From NCBI GenBank assembly GCA_018000455.1, contig JAGNJW010000001.1, forward strand, positions 1 to 64,000: 64,000 bases of DNA, read 5' to 3'. A model generated the notes under the pieces. The model saw nothing but the letters and a program-made list of their open reading frames with translations. It did not search any database and had not been told where the DNA came from. Each line of letters starts with the position of its first letter. The first letter of the stretch is position 1. Below, one piece after another: positions 14,852-33,497 of the stretch. Source of the stretch: Acidobacteriota bacterium. GTDB taxonomy: Bacteria; Acidobacteriota; Vicinamibacteria; Vicinamibacterales; UBA2999. Position numbers and translations under genes: made by a program.

Positions 14852-14999
14852 ACGGCGGATGCCCGGCCTGGCGTGACCGGTCGATCTCGTCGCTGCACAA
14901 GACGACAGGCGCTGGCCTCCGGCGCAACGAGACGCTGCGCGGTCGCGGGGGCGTCGCATGATGTCCGATATACTTCATGGCGCAAGAGGAGGCCGAGAG

Positions 15000-15305
15000 A
15001 TGAGCAACGAGTCGTTCAAGGCATTCATGTCACGTGTGAACGAAGACGAAGGGCTGCGCGAGAAGCTGCGCGCGGCTGGCGGCGGCGATGGGCTGTCACT
15101 GCAGGCGCTGGCGGAGTTCGCCGGCGCCCACGGTCATGCGTTTTCGGTCGAGGATGTGACCTCGGAACTGTCCGACGCGCAGCTCGGCGCCGTGGCTGGC
15201 GGGCTCACCACGGCCCCGCTGCTGTTTGACAAGGCCTCGCCTTACCTGACGTTCTACAAGCTCGGCGGGTCCGACTTGATGAGCACCTACATCAAGCTCA
15301 CGTGA
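15000..15305 (+). CDS. Nif11-leader precursor peptide lacking core cysteine (RiPP candidate 1)
   Basis: A 101-residue peptide. The start at 15000 follows AGAGGAGGCC; an ATG 14 codons upstream lacks such a site. Residues 1-68 are a Nif11-type leader: FKAFMSRVNEDEGLREKLR, LAEFAGAHGHAFSVEDV, then ELSDAQLGAVAGG, ending in the double-glycine cleavage site used by peptidase-domain ABC exporters. The 33-residue core begins LTTAPLLFDK and ends MSTYIKLT. It has six Ser/Thr but no Cys, so it cannot form lanthionines by itself. The leader end closely resembles that of the precursor at 25803 (both read AVAGG). An 8-bp inverted repeat follows the stop (15315-15322 with 15360-15367), without a T-run. Modification, if any, is unknown. 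Confidence 0.85.
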   Translation: MSNESFKAFMSRVNEDEGLREKLRAAGGGDGLSLQALAEFAGAHGHAFSVEDVTSELSDAQLGAVAGGLTTAPLLFDKASPYLTFYKLGGSDLMSTYIKLT

Positions 15306-15396: not shown

Positions 15397-16914
15397 ATGA
15401 ACCCACCGCCGCGCTTCGCAGGCACGAACGCCCGCGACGTGGTCCGCGCTGTGTTCGATGAAGCCGGATACACGGAGGCCGAGCTCGGCCGGAACCTTGG
15501 GCCGGGCATCGCCGCCCTGATGTCGGTCGGCGCGCACGTCGCGCACGTCGGGCGCGCCCGGTCCTATGGCGGACACACGGCGCAGGCCCTCCTGGCGCGG
15601 CTGTTCCTCCTCGGGCAGGCAGCGACGTGGGAAGAGGCCTGCGACCTGCTGGGCCACGACCGGGTGACTTCGTTTCGTCAGGCTGGCTTGCTCACCGGCG
15701 ACACCGGGTGCCTCGCCGCGGTGGGCATGACGCCGGTGGGCGAGCTCCTCATCGCCCACGACCGCCGCGATGCGCATCGATCGGGCGCGGCCGCGTTCGT
15801 GCCAGGCCCGGCTCCGGCGACGCGCCGCTTTGCGGATCTGGCGATCCGCCGCCCCGGCGCGACGGTGCTCGACCTCGGCTGCGGCCAGGGGCTGCTGGCG
15901 CTGCTTGCCGCCGAGCTCGGCGGGCGGGTCGTGGCAACCGATCTCAACCCGCGCGCGGTCGCCTTCGTCGCCTTCAACGCCGCGCTGAATCGCCTCGACA
16001 ACGTCGCCTGCCTCCAGGGCGATCTCTTCGCGCCCGTCGCCGGCCAACGCTTCGATCTCGTCCTGTCGAACCCGCCGTTCGTGATCTCGCCTGCCTCCGC
16101 GTTCCTGTATCGTGACGGCCCCGGCATCTGCGAGCGCATCGCGCGCGAGGCGCCAGCGTGTCTTGCCAGCGGCGGCGTCCTGCAGATGGCGGCGAACTGG
16201 CCCTGCCATCGTGGCCACGACTGGAAGGCGGACCTGCTTGCCTGGTGTGGCGACGCCGGCTGCGACGTCTGGGTGCTGCAGTCGGACCGTCTCGATCCGG
16301 TGACCTACGCCACCATCTGGCTGAGGCAGGCGCACGACGTCCTGTCCGAACTGGGACCCGATCTCGATGAGTGGCTGGCGTTCTACGACCGGGCCGGCAT
16401 CGAGGCCATTGGGGCCGGCGTCATCACCATGCGCCGCCGGGGAGAACGTGACCCCGGGCCGCCGTACTGGTTCGAGATCCGCGACATGCCGCCGCTGCAT
16501 GGTCCCGGCGGGGACACGATTGCGCGCGTGCTGGCCGCCAGGGATGTGCTGGCACGGCTCGACGACTCGACGCTGCTCGATGCGTTCGTCGCCCTCGCGC
16601 CGGAGGCCAGGTCCGTGGCCACCCGCCGCCCTGCCGCGACCGGATGGGAACAGAACACCAGTGAGCTGCGGCTCACACGAGGGCTCGCCTTAGCGCTTCG
16701 ACTCGACCCGGCCGGCACCGCCATCGCGGGGTTCCTGGATGGCACGCGGCCGGCACGCGCCGCGGTCGAGACATTCGCTGCCGCGGTGGGCGTGCCGGCA
16801 GCGGCGGTGATGCCCGGCGTGCCCGCGCTGCTGCGACGGTTGATCGAAACGGGACTGGCCGTCGTGCGCGAGGGAGATGCGAGCGACCCGGCGTCTGCAC
16901 CAGGTCGGCCATGA
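15397..16914 (+). CDS. Class I methyltransferase with winged-helix-like flanks (NPPF type)
   Basis: A 505-residue protein. Residues 1-140 are a helical, winged-helix-like region. The central methyltransferase domain has VLDLGCGQGLLALLA (motif I), VVATDLNPRAVAF (motif II) and the catalytic SNPPFV (motif IV). The Asn-Pro-Pro-Phe/Tyr form is used by enzymes that methylate amide or exocyclic amino nitrogens. The last 150 residues are a second helical domain. This architecture resembles a family widespread in Actinomycetota (DUF7059/DUF7782-type), whose substrate I do not know. It begins 91 bp after the Nif11 peptide, so a role in peptide methylation is possible but unproven; a housekeeping nucleic-acid role is equally likely. 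Confidence 0.8.
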   Translation: MNPPPRFAGTNARDVVRAVFDEAGYTEAELGRNLGPGIAALMSVGAHVAHVGRARSYGGHTAQALLARLFLLGQAATWEEACDLLGHDRVTSFRQAGLLTGDTGCLAAVGMTPVGELLIAHDRRDAHRSGAAAFVPGPAPATRRFADLAIRRPGATVLDLGCGQGLLALLAAELGGRVVATDLNPRAVAFVAFNAALNRLDNVACLQGDLFAPVAGQRFDLVLSNPPFVISPASAFLYRDGPGICERIAREAPACLASGGVLQMAANWPCHRGHDWKADLLAWCGDAGCDVWVLQSDRLDPVTYATIWLRQAHDVLSELGPDLDEWLAFYDRAGIEAIGAGVITMRRRGERDPGPPYWFEIRDMPPLHGPGGDTIARVLAARDVLARLDDSTLLDAFVALAPEARSVATRRPAATGWEQNTSELRLTRGLALALRLDPAGTAIAGFLDGTRPARAAVETFAAAVGVPAAAVMPGVPALLRRLIETGLAVVREGDASDPASAPGRP

Positions 16915-20545: not shown

Positions 20546-22177
20546 CTACGCGCGCCTGTCCACAAACGTGCGGGGTTCGCGCGGGCGCCCGGACGGGTAT
20601 CGCCTGGCGTCACGTGTCGACGCCCAGAGCAATGCAGGGCCGACCACGCGATTGATCGCCGACGTCATCATGCCGAACTCGCGCTCGGTGTCGAGCCGTA
20701 GCGCCCGGATCCGCTCGCTCACCCCAGGGTTCCCCGCGCGCAGGTAGCGCTCCATCGCCCAGAGCGCGGCGCCGTACCCGGCGCGAAGCTGCGAGGCGGC
20801 GATGCCCACGCGGCCACGCACCCTGGGGTCGGCATCGGCACGATACCGCTGCCAGCGCAGCATCATGGTTCGCATCAGGCGAAAGAGACTCGGCCCGTTC
20901 CTCTCGAAGTCCAGACGGAATGCACGGTCCAGTAACACCTTCGATTCGTCCCGCGAGATCGCCGGATGCCGGAAGTTGAACTTGAACTGACCGTGCGTAT
21001 CCGCCAGATCGACGTCGTTGAGGAGCCGCCCCTCCGAGGTGACCTGCGCGTGCAACGCCGTGCCCGGCATCGGCGTGTACAGCATGAACTGGTGAAAGAC
21101 CGTCTCGTGAGCGATGGCACGCTCGATGTCCGCGCCGATGTTCTCCGGCGTATGGTGCTCCAGGCCGATAATCGTCGAGCCATGCACGCAGATGCCGTGC
21201 GCCTGCAGCTCGCGCACGAGCGACAGTGTGTCGGTTCCCTTGAGCTTGGTATAGCCCGTATCCGTCGATTCGAGACCGAGCCAGATCCATTCGACTCCGA
21301 GCTCGACGAGCTCGCGGATGTCGTACTTGCGAATGGCGTTCGCCGACGAAAACACGTACATCGCCCAAGTCTTGCCCGCCGCCTTCATGCAGTCGAGCAG
21401 CTCCATCGCCCGGCGCTTGTACAGCAGGAAGTTCTCATCCATCATGAAGAACGACGAGACACCGAGCGCGCGCTCCGCGTGGCACATCACACGGAAGAGT
21501 TCCTCGCCGCGCTGATAGAAGTTGACGAACTTGCCTTTCCCGCCGAAGAAGGCTGATGTCGTGCAGAAGTTACAGCCGAGCGGACACCCGACGGACGGCA
21601 CGATCGTGGCCGCCGGGCTGCCGCCTCCACGCGGGCTGGGTAGGCCCATCATGCGGAAGCCGAACGACGACGCAATCAACGGGTGCACCAACGGACGGTC
21701 CGGGGCCTCGCCCAGGAACGCCCGCATCCACGCCACGCCTTCTCCGCGCACGATGTGGTCGGCATCGATCGTCGTCTCGATGTCCGGTGTCGATGTCACG
21801 TGACCGCCAACCACAATCGTGGAGTGCGGTGAGTGCAACCGCACGAGGCGGCACATTTCGCGGACCTTGCCGATGTTGACCACGATCGCCGAGATCCCGA
21901 CGATGTCGTAGTGGCGTACCGTCAGTTCCTGGACGAAGCGCTCGCGGGTGGGGAAGTCCAGCAGCGTACAAGGCGCCGAGATGTTCTGGTGAATGAACAT
22001 CAGGCCCCAGCTGCGGTGAAACATGCGCAGCGAGAATGGGCCCTGGGCTCTCGTCACTTGGTTGTGGTACAACTCCACGGGATTGATGAGGCGCGACCCG
22101 TACTCGTCGTCTTGCGCGAAGGGCTTGAAGACGGAAGACAGGAGCACACGCGCTCGGGTGCCCTTGGGATGACGCAT
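20546..22177 (-). CDS. Radical SAM protein with N-terminal B12-binding-like domain
   Basis: A 543-residue enzyme. The start at 22177 was chosen because GAGGAGG precedes it by about 7 nt; the next upstream Met has no such site. The N-terminal part (about 60-165) has a Rossmann-like cobalamin-binding layout (YDIVGISAIVVNIGKVREM, STIVVGGHV) but lacks the DxHxxG histidine motif. The radical SAM core has VGCPLGCNFC, with the three cluster cysteines spaced C-x3-C-x2-C, then SFFMMDENFLLYKRRAMELL, ANAIRKYDIRELVELGVEW and IIGLEHHTPENI. Enzymes of this layout do methylations or rearrangements. It is divergent from lanM with 132 bp between starts, so a shared promoter region and a peptide-modifying role are possible but not shown. 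Confidence 0.85.
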   Translation of the reverse strand: MRHPKGTRARVLLSSVFKPFAQDDEYGSRLINPVELYHNQVTRAQGPFSLRMFHRSWGLMFIHQNISAPCTLLDFPTRERFVQELTVRHYDIVGISAIVVNIGKVREMCRLVRLHSPHSTIVVGGHVTSTPDIETTIDADHIVRGEGVAWMRAFLGEAPDRPLVHPLIASSFGFRMMGLPSPRGGGSPAATIVPSVGCPLGCNFCTTSAFFGGKGKFVNFYQRGEELFRVMCHAERALGVSSFFMMDENFLLYKRRAMELLDCMKAAGKTWAMYVFSSANAIRKYDIRELVELGVEWIWLGLESTDTGYTKLKGTDTLSLVRELQAHGICVHGSTIIGLEHHTPENIGADIERAIAHETVFHQFMLYTPMPGTALHAQVTSEGRLLNDVDLADTHGQFKFNFRHPAISRDESKVLLDRAFRLDFERNGPSLFRLMRTMMLRWQRYRADADPRVRGRVGIAASQLRAGYGAALWAMERYLRAGNPGVSERIRALRLDTEREFGMMTSAINRVVGPALLWASTRDARRYPSGRPREPRTFVDRRA

Positions 22178-22309: not shown

Positions 22310-25300
22310 GTGTGCGAAGCGTGTACCAGACCGGCGCCTTCGCGGAGGGCTGACGCCATCGCCCGCCTGGAGCACGTGCTGGGTGAGGTGGTGCGGCGGG
22401 CGACGACCCTGGCCGAGCGGCTCGCGGCGCCGGCCGCGGACATCGACTTGGGGGGCGGCGACCTGGTCGACGAGGACCTCGCCGACGATCGCATGGCTCG
22501 CTGGGTCGATGCCGCTGCGCTCGGGCAGCCAGCCGCCTTCGCCCGCAGGCTGGCGTGGTCCGGGCTCGACCCCGCACACGCGCGACGGATCGTGGGCACG
22601 GCGCGGCCCCCGACCGTCCCTCCCCCCTGGGCCGCCGTCCTTCGCTACATCCTGAGCGGTTCGCGGCCTCCGTTGCCGGCAAGCTCGCGGCCGGCTAACG
22701 CCACGCGCGTGCTCGGCGCCGGCAGCGACTACGCCGTCCCCCTCGATCCGGCAGACCCCCAGCCGTTCGAGGACGTGTGGCGCCCGGTGGTGTTCGCGGC
22801 CAGACGCCTTCTGGCAGCGCGCTTCGCCGGGAGGCCCGACCTCTTGTCGTGGCTCTCCGAGCCGGCGGCGTCGACGCTCGAGCGGGCGCTGCTGGTCCGT
22901 CTGGCGCATCTTGCCGCGCCGGCGTTGTACGAGGAGTTCGACGGGCATCGCCCGGTCGGGCCCGTGCTGCTCGCGCGCATGATTGGCGATCGACCCGGCG
23001 GTGACGGGGATGCTCGTTACCGGGCCTTCGTGGCACGGCTCGGCCGCGAGGAGGGCCTGGGGGCGCTGGCGGTCCGCTGGCCGTCATTGGCCCGACTCGT
23101 CTCGCTTGCGGTGAGCGACTGGGTGGACGCTGCCGCCGAACTCCTGGTGCGCTACGCCGCCGATCGGAGGGCACTTGCACCGTTCATCACGGGCGGCGAT
23201 GGCGCACCCGGCGTCATCGCGGGCATCGCGCCGTACCTCTCGGATCCACACCGCGGCGGCCGGACCGTGGCCATCCTCGAGTTCGAGTCGGGCGCCCGCA
23301 TCGTCTACAAGCCGCGGCCGCTGGCGATGGAATCGGCCCTGCAGCAGCTTCTCGCCTGGTGCAATCGGTCGGGGGCTCTGCCGTGCGACCTCCGCACGGT
23401 CCCGGTGCTCGATCGTGGCGACTACGGGTGGATGGCCCACGTCGCGGCCCGGCCATGCGAAAGCCGGGACGCCGCAGAGCGCTACTACACCCGTGCCGGC
23501 ATGCTGCTCGCGCTGCTCCACCTGCTTCGTGGCACCGACTGCCACTGGGAGAATCTCGTCGCGGCAGGTGAGCATCCGGTGCTGGTCGACGCCGAGGCGC
23601 TCTTCCACCACGATCTCGCGCCGGCGGTGTTCGGCGAGGACGTGGTGCCCCCGGGGACCTCGCTGGACCACGCGTTCGAGCAGTCGGTGCTGCGCACGGG
23701 CCTGCTGCCGCGCTGGGCGCCGGGCCAGGACGGCGGGATTGGCCTCGACATCAGCGGACTGGGAGGCGTGGGGCATCTCCCGAGTGTCCGACAGCGGCAA
23801 TGGGTGGCCGTCAACACCGACACCATGCGCCAGGACGTTGTGGAGGCGCCTCTCGCGCCGCGAGCCAACACCCCATCGCTCGGCGAACAGCAGGCAGACC
23901 CCGACGACTACGTCGATTGGATCGTGACGGGCTTCGAGGCGTTCTGCGGCCTCGTGCAATCCCGTCGCGGCCTGCTGCTGTCCTCGAGCAGCCCGCTCAA
24001 GGAGTTCGCGGATCTGCCGGTCCGCTTCGTGTACCGGCCGACATCCACGTATCACGCGATCCTCCGTGCCGCCGCGACGGCGCCCTGCCTGAGGGAGGGC
24101 ATCGATCGCAGCCTTGCCCTGGAGGCCGTGGCCCGCGCCTACCTGCAATCCGCCGGCAGGCCCGCAGCCTGGCCGGTGCTGGCCTTCGAGAGTGCGGCGC
24201 TGGAGCGCGGCGACATCCCCTACTTCCAGGCGCGCACGAGCGGCACGGCGCTGGATGCCGGCGTCCCGGTCGCGGGCTTCTTCGACCGGGCAAGTCACGC
24301 CTGCGCGCTCGAGCGCCTGGCGAGTCTGGACGAGGCCGCCGTGGCCCGGGAGGCGGCGCTCATTCGCGGGGCGTTTCTCGCCCGGCGCCTCGACCGTGCG
24401 GCGCCGAGCCTGACGCCCCACGACCGGTTCGCCGCCGACGAGGCGCTCGAGACCGTCGCGCCGCTCGAAACCGAGAGCCTGATCGCGGCTGCACTCGCCA
24501 TCGGGCACGCCCTTCGCGATCGCGCGATCGCAGCTTCGGATGGTTCCGTGAACTGGATCGGTCTGGCCCGGGCAGCAGATGCCGATCGCTATCAGCTTCA
24601 GCCCCTCGGTGCCGGCCTGTACTCGGGTGCGGTTGGCGTCGCGCTATTCCTGGCGGCCCTGGACGACGTCACGGGCAGACACGAGTACCGCCGGTTGTGC
24701 CAGGCGGCCCTGTCGCCGGTGTTGCGGGCCCTGTCGTTCGACCATCGCGACGTGCTCGCGCGGTGGGCCGCAGGCGCCGGTATCGGTGGCGGCGAGGGGC
24801 TTGGCGGCATCGTCTACGGCCTCGTCCGGGTGGGCCGGCTGCTGGGCCGTGCCGAGCCCATCGACGTGGCCGCGCGCCTCGCCGAGCTCATCTCGCCCGA
24901 ACTGGTGGCCCGCGACCGGGTCTTCGACGTCATCGGCGGCAGCGCCGGGGCCATCCTCGGGCTCTTGGCGCTCCACGATGCCATCGGCGAGGTGACGATC
25001 CTCGACCGCGCGCAGCGCTGCGCCGCCCACCTGCTCGAGCACCGGGAACCTGGCACCGGCACCTACCGGACCTGGCGGACGGTCGACCGGGCGCCGCTGA
25101 CCGGGTTTGCGCATGGCGCGGCGGGCATCGCCTACGCGCTGCTGCGACTGCACGCCGCACGGCCCGACGCGGCGCTGGTGGCCGCCGCTCGGGAGGCAAT
25201 TGCCTACGAGACACAGACCTTCGCGCCTGACGTCATGAACTGGCCCGACTTCCGGACGCATCAGGGCGTCAGCGGACCGGTCTTCCTGGCGAACTGGTGC

Positions 25301-25690
25301 CACGGCGCGGCGGGCATTGCCCTGGCGCGACTCGGCGGCCTCGATGCGCTCGACACCCCGGGGGTGCGCGACGACATCGAGCACGGCCTGGCCACGACGC
25401 GTGCCTGGGGCCTGCACGACGTCGATCACATCTGCTGTGGAAACGCCGGCCGTGCCGAGGTGCTTCACGTCGCGGGCGCGCGGCTCGGCCGCGCCGGGCT
25501 GACCGACCGCGCACGCCGCCAGGCCGCCTGGGTGGTGAAGCGTGCGGCAGACACCGGAGGCTACTGGGTCATCCCCGGGCTGGCGGACCGCGTGTTCTCG
25601 CCGGGCCTGTTCCAGGGCGTGTCGGGTATCGGGTACACGTGGCTTCGGCTCGCCCGCCCCGATCTCCCCTCGCTGTTGCTGTACGTATAG
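22310..25690 (+). CDS. lanM: Class II lanthipeptide synthetase LanM
   Basis: A 1126-residue bifunctional enzyme, normal for LanM (about 900-1200). The N-terminal dehydratase domain (DUF4135) uses ATP to phosphorylate and eliminate Ser/Thr. Its kinase-like residues are visible: IVYKPRPLAM (Lys near residue 334), CHWENL near 410 and VLVDAEALFHHDL. The C-terminal LanC cyclase domain (from about 765) has GAAGIAYALLR, WCHGAAGI with zinc Cys997, and HICCGNAG with Cys1042 and Cys1043. The Cys-Cys-Gly replaces the Cys-His-Gly of most LanC/LanM enzymes and is the ProcM-type, three-cysteine zinc site. The GTG start is tentative; no strong ribosome binding site precedes it. A Nif11 precursor gene follows after 112 bp, matching its expected substrate. 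Confidence 0.95.
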   Translation: MCEACTRPAPSRRADAIARLEHVLGEVVRRATTLAERLAAPAADIDLGGGDLVDEDLADDRMARWVDAAALGQPAAFARRLAWSGLDPAHARRIVGTARPPTVPPPWAAVLRYILSGSRPPLPASSRPANATRVLGAGSDYAVPLDPADPQPFEDVWRPVVFAARRLLAARFAGRPDLLSWLSEPAASTLERALLVRLAHLAAPALYEEFDGHRPVGPVLLARMIGDRPGGDGDARYRAFVARLGREEGLGALAVRWPSLARLVSLAVSDWVDAAAELLVRYAADRRALAPFITGGDGAPGVIAGIAPYLSDPHRGGRTVAILEFESGARIVYKPRPLAMESALQQLLAWCNRSGALPCDLRTVPVLDRGDYGWMAHVAARPCESRDAAERYYTRAGMLLALLHLLRGTDCHWENLVAAGEHPVLVDAEALFHHDLAPAVFGEDVVPPGTSLDHAFEQSVLRTGLLPRWAPGQDGGIGLDISGLGGVGHLPSVRQRQWVAVNTDTMRQDVVEAPLAPRANTPSLGEQQADPDDYVDWIVTGFEAFCGLVQSRRGLLLSSSSPLKEFADLPVRFVYRPTSTYHAILRAAATAPCLREGIDRSLALEAVARAYLQSAGRPAAWPVLAFESAALERGDIPYFQARTSGTALDAGVPVAGFFDRASHACALERLASLDEAAVAREAALIRGAFLARRLDRAAPSLTPHDRFAADEALETVAPLETESLIAAALAIGHALRDRAIAASDGSVNWIGLARAADADRYQLQPLGAGLYSGAVGVALFLAALDDVTGRHEYRRLCQAALSPVLRALSFDHRDVLARWAAGAGIGGGEGLGGIVYGLVRVGRLLGRAEPIDVAARLAELISPELVARDRVFDVIGGSAGAILGLLALHDAIGEVTILDRAQRCAAHLLEHREPGTGTYRTWRTVDRAPLTGFAHGAAGIAYALLRLHAARPDAALVAAAREAIAYETQTFAPDVMNWPDFRTHQGVSGPVFLANWCHGAAGIALARLGGLDALDTPGVRDDIEHGLATTRAWGLHDVDHICCGNAGRAEVLHVAGARLGRAGLTDRARRQAAWVVKRAADTGGYWVIPGLADRVFSPGLFQGVSGIGYTWLRLARPDLPSLLLYV

Positions 25691-25802
25691 GGGCGGGCCG
25701 TTTCTGATAGCATCACGCTTCTCGGCGGCAGTTGGAAGGCATCTTGGCGTGCGCGGATCCAGGTGCCGCCGGTGAAGCACCCGAGACGACAGGGAGGCAA
25801 CC

Positions 25803-26117
25803 ATGGCGGATCAGGGACTCGAAGGGTTCTACGTAAAGGTCATGGAGGACCCGGCACTGCAGGCCCAGTTGAAGGACGCGCCGGACGCGAGCAGCTTCGT
25901 GGCCACGGCCGTGCATCTGGGGCAGCAGCACGGCTACCACTTCACGGCCGAGGAAGTCGTGGCCAAGCTCCGTGCCCCGACCGACGGGGCCGAGATGTCC
26001 GAGAAGGAGCTTGAGGCCGTGGCCGGAGGCTACACCTCGTTCGGCAGCAGCGTGCTGTGCGGTTACTGCGGCAAGACGAGCGGAACGTGCTCGGCGACCT
26101 CCGCGCTGCCGCGGTAA
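25803..26117 (+). CDS. lanA: Nif11-leader lanthipeptide precursor with three core cysteines
   Basis: A 104-residue precursor. AGGGAGGCAACC precedes the ATG. Residues 1-76 are a Nif11 leader (LEGFYVKVMEDPALQAQLK, LGQQHGYHFTAEEVVAKL, MSEKELEAVAGG), ending in a Gly-Gly site. The 28-residue core starts YTSFGSSVL and ends SATSALPR. Cysteines lie at residues 86, 89 and 96, with Ser/Thr both before (T78, S79, S82, S83) and between them (T92, S93, T95). So up to three thioether rings could form in the N-to-C sense, with other topologies possible. It follows lanM on the same strand. Modification by that LanM is the natural inference from family knowledge; ring pattern and activity are unknown. Confidence 0.92.
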   Translation: MADQGLEGFYVKVMEDPALQAQLKDAPDASSFVATAVHLGQQHGYHFTAEEVVAKLRAPTDGAEMSEKELEAVAGGYTSFGSSVLCGYCGKTSGTCSATSALPR

Positions 26118-26125
26118 GGAACACG

Positions 26126-27157
26126 ATGAAGGACCACCTGGCGGTGGTCCTTCCTGCGCTCTCGCCCACGCTCGCCGGGACATCGGCGCGCGCCGCGCTC
26201 AGCGATTCTGCATCGCGCCTGCCGCCGTGCCCTGCCGGCGGCTTCGAGATCTCTCTGCGCCCTTGCTCCGATCGCGTGGACTTCCACCTGCTGGCCGATC
26301 GGTGGACCTCGCTCGCACGGCTGCTCGGATCGCCCCACGCGGGATGGGCCGGCGTCGCCCGAGTTGCCGACGCGTGGACCGCCGAGGACTCCCCGCTCGC
26401 CTCGAGCGTCATGGCGCTCATCCTGGAGTTCGATCTGGATCGCGTCGCACCCGAGACGCTGGCGCCGTGCGTCTTCTGCGCGCTCGAACCCGCGGCTGGC
26501 GAGCAACCAGACACTGTCAGGTCGGTGACAGCGCACCTGCTCGGGGAGGCCTCGCTCGCTGGCGTGGCGCCCGCCCTGGACGCCTGCCTTGCCGCGCTGC
26601 CCTCCGGCGCCGGCGTCAATCATGTCGGTGCGATGTGGTCGCGTCCCGAGCCATCCGTCCGGATCAACATCGGGGGCCTGGCGCCGAATCGCATTGCGCC
26701 GCTGGCGGCGCGGCTCGGCTGGCCGGGCGATCCCGTGGCGCTGGCACACATCGTCCACGGACTCGGCGCGGTGGTGGATTCGATCGAGCTGGCATGGGAC
26801 CTCGGAAGCGAGGTGCCCAGTCGGATCGGTCTCGAGTGCTTCCTCTCGGACACCGGTGACCCGGCGACACCTCGGTGGCCCATCGTGCTCGAACACATGA
26901 GCGGCCTGGCCCCCTGCGACCCCGCGAAGGTTCGCGCGCTGCTCGACTGGCCGGGGCTGACCCTGGCATCGGCGGGCCAGGCATGGCCGGCTGCGCTGCG
27001 GCTGACGGACGCCTTCCTCGCGGGACTCGCGACCAGCGCGTTCGTGCGCCGTATCAACCACGTGAAGGCCGTCGTCGAGGGCGACCACGTGGCGGAGGTC
27101 AAGGCCTACCCGATCTTCGGCCACCGCTGGCTGCCACGCGTCGCGCCCGCCGGCTAG
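26126..27157 (+). CDS. Unknown protein co-located with the lanthipeptide precursor
   Basis: A 343-residue protein. The ATG at 26126 has AAGGA 6 nt upstream and lies 8 bp after the precursor stop, so co-transcription is very likely. No signal peptide or membrane helix is apparent. I do not recognise a named domain. Readable conserved-looking segments are VDFHLLADRWTSLARLL, VNHVGAMWSRPEPSVRINI, PSRIGLECFLSD, WPIVLEHMSGLAPCDPAKV and FVRRINHVKAVVEGDHVAEV. I have a weak recollection of proteins with an IGLEC-type motif beside LanM and Nif11 genes, which would suit a leader-recognition or maturation partner, but this is not firm. The first codons lie inside a perfect 10-bp hairpin. Confidence 0.75.
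   Translation: MKDHLAVVLPALSPTLAGTSARAALSDSASRLPPCPAGGFEISLRPCSDRVDFHLLADRWTSLARLLGSPHAGWAGVARVADAWTAEDSPLASSVMALILEFDLDRVAPETLAPCVFCALEPAAGEQPDTVRSVTAHLLGEASLAGVAPALDACLAALPSGAGVNHVGAMWSRPEPSVRINIGGLAPNRIAPLAARLGWPGDPVALAHIVHGLGAVVDSIELAWDLGSEVPSRIGLECFLSDTGDPATPRWPIVLEHMSGLAPCDPAKVRALLDWPGLTLASAGQAWPAALRLTDAFLAGLATSAFVRRINHVKAVVEGDHVAEVKAYPIFGHRWLPRVAPAG
26129..26152 (+). promoter_or_regulatory. 10-bp perfect hairpin at the precursor/partner junction
   Basis: AAGGACCACC at 26129-26138 pairs perfectly with GGTGGTCCTT at 26143-26152 across a TGGC loop. It starts 12 nt after the precursor stop and directly after the ATG of the next gene. No T-run follows, so it is not a classical terminator. 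It may protect the precursor mRNA 3' end, cause partial termination, or limit translation of the downstream gene. Those roles are inferred; the pairing itself is seen. Confidence 0.6.
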
Positions 27158-31533: not shown

Positions 31534-32463
31534 ATGATCGAATGGGCGCTGGCGCTCGTCCGCACGTCGGACCTGGCGCGGCTGCCCGCGCACCTGCGGT
31601 TCGAGATAACGCCGTCAGGGCGACTAGGCGCGCAGCAGGTCGAGGCCCGCGAGGCCGCGACGGCGGCTTTCGGCCCGCCTGCGTGGACGCGCCTGTATTT
31701 CGGCCACGAGTTCTGCGAGCGCCGAGCCCCGTCGGTGGCCGAGGTCCGCCGCGCGTACGACGCGGCCGAGTCGGCTGGCCTCGCCTTCACGCTGCTGACC
31801 GGGCACGTTTCGGACCGGGGTCTCGACCAACTGCGGCCGGTTCTGGCGTGGCTGGCCGCGCTCAACAACCCGCGGGTGGAGGTCGTGGTCAACGACTGGG
31901 GTGTCGCCCGCGTGGTCACCCGTGGACACGCGCCGCTCACGCCGGTACTCGGCCGGTTGATGAACCGCATGCTCCGCGATCCCCGCGTGATGCCCGGCTT
32001 CGCGAGTGCCAGCGCGCCGGCCGACGCCTTGGCGGCCGTGCGGCAGTCGTCGCTCGCGGCGCCGGTGTTCCGCCGCCTGCTTTCGCGGCTCGGCGTGGCG
32101 CGCGTGGAGTTCGACAATCTGATCCAGGGCCTCGATATGGACTTCGCCGCTCTGGGCGTGGCCGCGTCACTCTACGTCCCCTACGGCTACGTCGTCACCG
32201 GCCGGGTCTGCGCGATCGGATCGCTCAGCCGGCCCGTGTCGGACCGCTTTCACGTGGCCGCCGACTGCCGGCGCGAGTGCCTGCGCTACACGGTCGTCCG
32301 GCAGGCCTCGGCATCGCCGTTCGACGGCGGGCATCGGGAGTATCTCGAGCGCGGCACGACGTGCTGCTACTACCAGGACACCGCGTCGATGGCGGCGGCA
32401 GGCGCCACGGCACGCGAGGCCGGCATCAGCCGCGTCGTCTACCAGCCCGACCTGCCCGTGTGA
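31534..32463 (+). CDS. U32-family protein resembling UbiV
   Basis: A 309-residue protein; the start at 31534 gives the natural family length (E. coli UbiV is 292). It has the U32 TIM-barrel style (LDQLRPVLAWLAALNNPRVE, VVVNDWGVARVV). Its cysteines follow the UbiV plan for a 4Fe-4S cluster: one in YFGHEFCERRAPS (residue 61), then VCAIGS, and further on DCRREC with C-x3-C spacing. A second Cys pair, TCCYYQ, lies near residue 290. UbiV pairs with UbiU to hydroxylate the ubiquinone ring without oxygen. Acidobacteriota generally use menaquinone, so the substrate here may differ. It is 5 bp upstream of the UbiU-like gene, which supports a heterodimer. Confidence 0.75.
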   Translation: MIEWALALVRTSDLARLPAHLRFEITPSGRLGAQQVEAREAATAAFGPPAWTRLYFGHEFCERRAPSVAEVRRAYDAAESAGLAFTLLTGHVSDRGLDQLRPVLAWLAALNNPRVEVVVNDWGVARVVTRGHAPLTPVLGRLMNRMLRDPRVMPGFASASAPADALAAVRQSSLAAPVFRRLLSRLGVARVEFDNLIQGLDMDFAALGVAASLYVPYGYVVTGRVCAIGSLSRPVSDRFHVAADCRRECLRYTVVRQASASPFDGGHREYLERGTTCCYYQDTASMAAAGATAREAGISRVVYQPDLPV

Positions 32464-32468
32464 GTGCG

Positions 32469-33497
32469 ATGAAGATCCTCTCGCCGGTCAGCGTCGTGGA
32501 TGAAGTGGACATGCTGGTGGACAGCGGTGCCGGCGAGCTGTACTGCGGGCTTCAGCCCCAGGACTGGACGAGCACTTACTCCGGCGCGCTGTGGATGAAC
32601 CGGCGCAGTCCGGCCGGCGCCAACCTGTCGAGCTTCGACGACCTCAGCGCGCTGGTGGGCCGGGCGCACGCCCACGCCGTGCCCGTGTTCCTCACGCTCA
32701 ACGCACCGGTGTACATCGAACGGCAGCTCCCGTATCTGGTCGACCTGGCGCGGCGGGCTCTCGACGAATGCGCAGTCGATGCGCTGATCGTGTCGGACCT
32801 TGCGCTGCTGCTGTCGCTCGCCGAGGCGGGGCTGGTCGGCCACGTGCACGTCAGCTCCGTCGCCAGCGCGCTCAACGCCGAGACCGTGCGCTTCTACGTC
32901 GATCTGGGCGTGGGGCGCGTGATCCTGCCGCGCGGCCTCAGCATCGCCGAGATCGGCCGGATCGCCAGCGACATCGCCGGCGAGGTGCCACTCGAGGTGT
33001 TCGTCCTCAACGACGGGTGCGCCTTCGAGGAGGGGCTGTGCCACACGCTGCATCACCACCGCGTGGGCGCCTTCTGCGTGGACATGGCCGGCTGGGCGCA
33101 CGAAGTCGAGCGAGCCGACGGCCGCCGGCTCGGCGAGGGCGAGCGGGCGAAGCTCGACGCGCACTTTCAGAGCCATCGCGAGTGGATCTGGCACCTCAAC
33201 GCGTGCGGTTCCACCGTGTCGGCGGGCGGCGTGCCGCTCGGCGCGTGCGGCGTCTGCGCCATCCCCGCGTTTCACGAACTCGGCATCGCCTCGGTGAAGA
33301 TCGCAGGCCGTCAGGCGTCGCCGCTCCGCAAGCTGCTCGGCCTGCGCCTGGTGCAGGGCACGCTCGCGCGTGTGAAAGACGGCGCGACGCCCGAGGCCGT
33401 GGCGGCGTGGGCTCTGCAGGCCCGCGGCACACGCGCCACCTGCGAGTCGGGCGTGATGTGCTACTACCGCTTCACGGCAGGCGAGCGTCCCTGTTAG
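32469..33497 (+). CDS. U32-family peptidase-like protein resembling UbiU
   Basis: A 342-residue U32 protein (E. coli UbiU is 331), starting MKILSPVSVVDEVDMLVDSG with ELYCGLQP, the usual first-strand motif. The barrel continues with LIVSDLALLLSLAEAGL and VHVSSVASALNAETVRFY. Cluster cysteines appear as NDGCAFEEGLCHTL (C-x6-C, the UbiU spacing), then FCVDMAGW and ACGVCAIPAF. The segment GIASVKIAGRQAS is the common U32 end-of-domain motif. It probably forms an iron-sulfur heterodimer with the preceding gene product. No UbiT-like SCP2 protein is adjacent. The downstream boundary lies 130 bp before the IS element. Confidence 0.85.
   Translation: MKILSPVSVVDEVDMLVDSGAGELYCGLQPQDWTSTYSGALWMNRRSPAGANLSSFDDLSALVGRAHAHAVPVFLTLNAPVYIERQLPYLVDLARRALDECAVDALIVSDLALLLSLAEAGLVGHVHVSSVASALNAETVRFYVDLGVGRVILPRGLSIAEIGRIASDIAGEVPLEVFVLNDGCAFEEGLCHTLHHHRVGAFCVDMAGWAHEVERADGRRLGEGERAKLDAHFQSHREWIWHLNACGSTVSAGGVPLGACGVCAIPAFHELGIASVKIAGRQASPLRKLLGLRLVQGTLARVKDGATPEAVAAWALQARGTRATCESGVMCYYRFTAGERPC

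Follow-up and report, generated by a model that had tools for sequence, protein, structure and literature searches.

A predicted LanM-precursor-prenyltransferase cassette for a prenylated class II lanthipeptide in an Acidobacteriota genome

Three neighbouring genes in the window (the whole 64,000-nucleotide stretch of Acidobacteriota DNA analysed here) probably act together to make a class II lanthipeptide that carries a prenyl group, a reading to which we assign a probability of roughly 80%. The synthetase (LanM) and the precursor are recognised by sequence and the prenyltransferase by predicted fold (Table 1). An earlier sequence-only reading had proposed a class II lanthipeptide locus with a Nif11 precursor, and this was borne out in every sequence test made. 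What is new here is the predicted prenyltransferase identity of the third gene; class II lanthipeptides were already known in Acidobacteriota (tha, PMC13083261).

If the reading is true, Acidobacteriota hold a compact LanM-precursor-prenyltransferase cassette with a non-Trp aromatic acceptor, which would widen the peptide prenyltransferase toolkit. The profile-less family of the third gene, called P0003 here, would likewise offer a way to detect prenylated RiPPs now annotated as hypothetical. Lipidation alters the interaction of peptides with membranes.

Table 1. Features of the predicted cassette and of the candidate export locus
Feature	Position	Strand	Basis
lanM, class II lanthipeptide synthetase (DUF4135 dehydratase + LanC-like cyclase)	22310..25690	+	TIGR03897, PF13575, PF05147
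Precursor peptide: 76-aa Nif11-type leader ending in AVAGG, then 28-aa core	25803..26117	+	PF07862, TIGR03798
Predicted core peptide YTSFGSSVLCGYCGKTSGTCSATSALPR	26031..26114	+	reading frame
P0003, predicted ABBA-fold peptide prenyltransferase, 343 aa	26126..27157	+	AF2 models, Foldseek, VIA, gene context
Exporter, Nif11 gene, PoyD-type epimerase	G000:C46 (L046 4268-11128)		

Synthetase, precursor and core

Profile searches confirm the first gene, as a prediction from sequence, as a complete class II lanthipeptide synthetase. Its product matches TIGR03897 at 812.8 bits (cut-off 304), the Pfam domains DUF4135 and LANC_like (PF13575, PF05147) are both full length, and the protein aligns to LicM2 over 221-1123, in keeping with the earlier description of a full-length LanM; the GTG start codon at 22310 is uncertain by a few codons. 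Alignment and a motif survey locate the cyclase zinc motifs at WCHGAAG and CCGNAG, where LicM2 has WCHG and CHG, and all three zinc ligands (Cys, Cys, and His or Cys) are present. Many LanMs have CHG at the position of this CCG; judged by its motifs, the window enzyme is of the CCG (ProcM) type. Nif11 precursors have been reported only with CCG (ProcM-type) LanMs (PMC10027976).

Confirmed in the same predictive sense is the second gene, which would encode a Nif11-type (N11P) RiPP precursor with a double-glycine site and then a core. Both Nif11 profiles match above their cut-offs, PF07862 at 41.6 bits (cut-off 23.8, Pfam) and TIGR03798 at 42.9 bits (cut-off 32.3, NCBIfam), and the leader ends in ELEAVAGG directly before the core YTSFGSSVLCGYCGKTSGTCSATSALPR, as the claim of a Nif11 precursor with a GG site had it. 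The core had also been called rich in Cys, Ser and Thr, and the count agrees: its 28 residues include three Cys, six Ser and four Thr. Cys10, Cys13 and Cys20 are candidate ring-forming thiols; Trp is absent, and Tyr1 and Tyr12 are, we infer, the likely prenyl acceptors. Only one of the four Nif11 genes in the genome has Cys in its core, on which ground a prochlorosin-type multi-substrate system was rejected.

Several other observations were made in the window. A second Nif11-leader gene, whose core LTTAPLLFDKASPYLTFYKLGGSDLMSTYIKLT has no Cys, lies at 14958-15305 and is followed at 15397-16914 by a gene whose 505-aa product has a methyltransferase domain and weakly matches DUF7059/DUF7782 and PqqD-like families. 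At 31534-33497 lies a gene of the Peptidase U32 family that resembles UbiU but scores below the cut-off; the gene ahead of it has Cys in its product and matches no family. The B12-binding radical SAM gene just upstream of the cassette (20546-22177) was considered as a cluster member and rejected as unrelated, because 21 of 59 relatives conserve it, mostly without a P0003-family member, and because its KLAP208 counterpart lies on another contig than the cassette. Promoter and terminator scans found nothing.

The third gene: predicted fold and family context

The partner gene had been placed 8 bp downstream of the precursor, and an ATG is indeed found at that distance past the precursor stop, at 26126, opening a reading frame to 27157. 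Against Pfam and NCBIfam the product has no family match; a Pfam search with this protein and eight relatives gave no prenyltransferase profile match, and none that was meaningful for the eight relatives. The earlier reading called this gene unknown, which stands where profiles are concerned, but the gene can now be named, by predicted fold, as an ABBA-fold peptide prenyltransferase.

Two AlphaFold2 models were made, both from only the sequences of the window and of KLAP208 (L007, which belongs to the same family but to a different genus), with the one or the other as query. Both are of low confidence (pLDDT 49.0 and pTM 0.55 with the window query; pLDDT 49.5 and pTM 0.55 with the KLAP208 query), and five alpha-beta-beta-alpha units stand in clear order in each. 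When the models were compared with the PDB by Foldseek, ABBA prenyltransferases made up 50 of the 50 matches listed for each model, with best E values of 9.9e-5 and 5.7e-4 and TM-scores of about 0.26-0.45. The matches listed include AmbP1, MpnD, NphB/Orf2, TleC, CloQ, EpzP, FamD1 and IptA and, for the window-query model, PagF and PatF. VIA, run with model residues 1-338, likewise returned ABBA/DMATS-type proteins in 50 of the 50 rows listed (Z 10.1-13.1, 225-265 residues aligned), and no other fold appears among the matches listed by either method. A search of PDB sequences with a P0003-family profile gave short matches only, to mitotic-spindle organizing protein 1, which were judged to be chance. 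Because both models were built from the same two sequences, they do not count as independent, and this together with the modest TM-scores makes the fold evidence strong but not final. The product is predicted with fair confidence to be an ABBA-fold peptide prenyltransferase.

In 18 of 22 loci, relatives of this protein adjoin LanM or Nif11/NHLP precursors (the exceptions are L035, L036, L038 and L041). A LanM accompanies the family member in the window, KLAP208, G427, Nostoc, Azospirillum, Pseudanabaena, L033, L042 and L043, and LanM and a Nif11 precursor occur together with it in the window, KLAP208, G427, Pseudanabaena and Nostoc loci. Other partners are YcaO (L037) and a radical-SAM C-methyltransferase (Acaryochloris). 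Domain fusions add to this picture: a P0003-family domain is joined to a radical SAM-SPASM domain in L042 (8568-10526, LanM adjoining), to a 2OG-Fe(II) oxygenase in L010, and to squalene-hopene-cyclase-like domains in L036 and L038 (weak matches), the last of which serve as a pointer to isoprenoid chemistry. Two-domain proteins with a P0003-family part are found at L036 8097-10385, L038 8296-10710 and L035 8205-10541; at L037 9494-17319, the neighbours of a P0003-family protein are YcaO, an ABC exporter and a protein that joins an NHLP leader to a cyclase-like domain. The family is patchy, occurring in 4 of 43 genomes of the host's family and in 10 of 396 sampled Acidobacteriota genomes (LanM above cut-off in 23 of the same 396), and a tree of 21 members is mostly unresolved except for the window and KLAP208 sequences.

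Conservation, export and alternative readings

Comparison with KLAP208 gives identities of 79.6% for LanM, 86.5% for the precursor and 74% for P0003, with dN/dS values of 0.27, 0.32 and 0.37, from which all three genes appear to be under purifying selection; the retention of the three-gene cassette with such values indicates more than a chance arrangement. For the core dN/dS is 0.25, on few sites, and the KLAP208 core YVSFGGSVLCGYCGKTSGTCSATSALPQ agrees with that of the window in 24 of 28 residues, the three Cys and both Tyr being kept. LanM, a prenyltransferase-family gene and a Nif11 precursor are also present in G427, whose core ARPRATSDGCGGAWTTLFGWC has a Trp. Beside the intact KLAP208 cassette, L007 7569-9563 contains a frameshifted Nif11 leader that loses its homology at Gly-Gly. 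The same interval has a second copy of the LanM 3' end, which shares 94% identity with the window LanM, and, in inverted orientation, part of another LanM that is about 37% identical to the one in G427.

Neither an exporter gene nor a protease gene is present in the window cassette. The sole C39 peptidase domain of the genome is on another contig, C46, in an exporter matching NHLM_micro_ABC1 at 1083.6 bits (cut-off 853.3), whose neighbours are a Nif11 gene and the gene of a PoyD-type epimerase (TIGR04517, 405.5 bits). The orthologous exporter/epimerase region of KLAP208 (DNA identity 77% and 74%) immediately precedes the LanM cassette, and in G427 the orthologous exporter (parts at 86%, 84% and 75% protein identity) stands beside LanM, prenyltransferase and Nif11 genes, the epimerase region there being only a remnant. 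Given that its orthologues adjoin the cassettes of both genomes, the C46 exporter is probably the one that the window cassette uses in trans.

The product might instead be an ordinary, unprenylated class II lanthipeptide, with the third protein acting as a leader-binding or scaffold look-alike of the fold, or as a small-molecule prenyltransferase. The low pLDDT of both models and the lack of a prenyltransferase profile match lean that way, as does the sharing of the family among LanM, YcaO and radical-SAM systems, which is what a general leader-binding protein would lead one to expect. However, the structural neighbours listed are of one fold only, the squalene-hopene-cyclase-like fusions suggest isoprenoid chemistry, and the analogous enzyme of mpp has been shown to prenylate a peptide, so that we think this reading unlikely.

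Prenylation could also be followed by further change in trans, either cyclisation of the prenyl group or epimerisation of residues, for example by the C46 epimerase. The profile score of that epimerase (405.5 bits), the contiguity of exporter, Nif11 gene, epimerase and LanM cassette in KLAP208, and the terpene-cyclase-like domains fused in P0003 relatives all fit such a course. We nevertheless consider it improbable, since a Nif11 precursor of its own accompanies the epimerase at C46, no terpene-cyclase-like gene turned up when the ten neighbouring proteins of the window were scanned against Pfam and NCBIfam, and in G427 the cassette persists while the epimerase gene is a remnant. A further idea is that of one acidobacterial RiPP platform, in which a common exporter would serve swappable modules (PoyD-type epimerase, CCG LanM, prenyltransferase) acting on the same Nif11 peptides, and the window product would be ring-closed, Tyr-prenylated and epimerised by the enzymes of two loci; we hold this to be a long shot. 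Decay of the window locus to a remnant whose product is no longer made seems very improbable: the broken precursor copy and inverted LanM fragment of KLAP208, the patchy spread (4 of 43 genomes within the family) and the location of the exporter on another contig could be read in that sense, but none of the three window genes is broken, and comparison with KLAP208 points to purifying selection on each (dN/dS 0.27-0.37).

Proposed pathway and known systems

If the product is a prenylated class II lanthipeptide, as we prefer to read the locus, the CCG-type LanM would bind the Nif11-type leader of the precursor, dehydrate Ser and Thr of the core, and form as many as three thioether rings at Cys10, Cys13 and Cys20. 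The predicted prenyltransferase would then bind the still-attached leader and use a prenyl diphosphate to prenylate a core side chain, the acceptor most likely being Tyr1 or Tyr12. Finally, the C46 NHLM-type ABC exporter with its C39 peptidase would cut after the double glycine and export the product. Two features weigh against this scheme: the core lacks Trp, which is what MppC of the mpp system prenylates, and the cassette contains neither exporter nor protease. We infer the step order, the number of rings, the length of the prenyl chain, the residue that accepts it and the use of the exporter in trans, with the steps and their order taken from family knowledge and from mpp.

The mpp system of Moorena producens comprises the LanM MppM, the Nif11 precursor MppE, the ABBA prenyltransferase MppC, the terpene synthase MppD and the oxygenase MppG (PMC12715784, PMC11791876). 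Leader-dependent prenylation of a lanthipeptide has already been shown for this cyanobacterial enzyme, MppC, which geranylates Trp of LanM-cyclised MppE and requires the whole leader (PMC12715784). Both systems have a class II LanM, a Nif11-type leader ending in Gly-Gly and an ABBA-type prenyltransferase (predicted in the window), P0003 being likened to MppC by gene set and fold type, with MppC taken from its description. The mpp core is a seven-residue peptide with Trp, whereas that of the window has 28 residues and three Cys but no Trp, and no brominase, arginase or terpene synthase such as mpp possesses was seen beside the window cassette; the terpene-cyclase-like and oxygenase fusions or neighbours of the P0003 family do repeat the mpp toolkit. 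The combination of genes and core had been thought unmatched: the core is without a match among the known products found, but with P0003 as a predicted prenyltransferase the gene combination is of a described kind, that of mpp.

RiPPs with polycyclic isoprenoid moieties have reportedly been described by Hubrich et al. (2024, Chem). These are isoprenoid-modified ribosomal peptides, and P0003 relatives are likewise fused to squalene-hopene-cyclase-like domains; unlike those systems, as described, the window prenyltransferase stands alone without a cyclase domain. With the prochlorosins (ProcM) the window shares a CCG-type LanM and a Nif11 leader with double glycine, yet prochlorosin precursors are many and scattered in the genome, whereas here a single Cys-bearing precursor lies beside LanM and has a prenyltransferase partner. 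In the tha system of a coral Acidobacteriota (ThaA/ThaM/ThaO), a class II lanthipeptide is acted upon by a GMC oxidoreductase that forms a thiazole (PMC13083261). The tha and window loci thus both pair an Acidobacteriota class II lanthipeptide with a further tailoring enzyme, which is the GMC oxidoreductase in tha and, by prediction, a prenyltransferase in the window.
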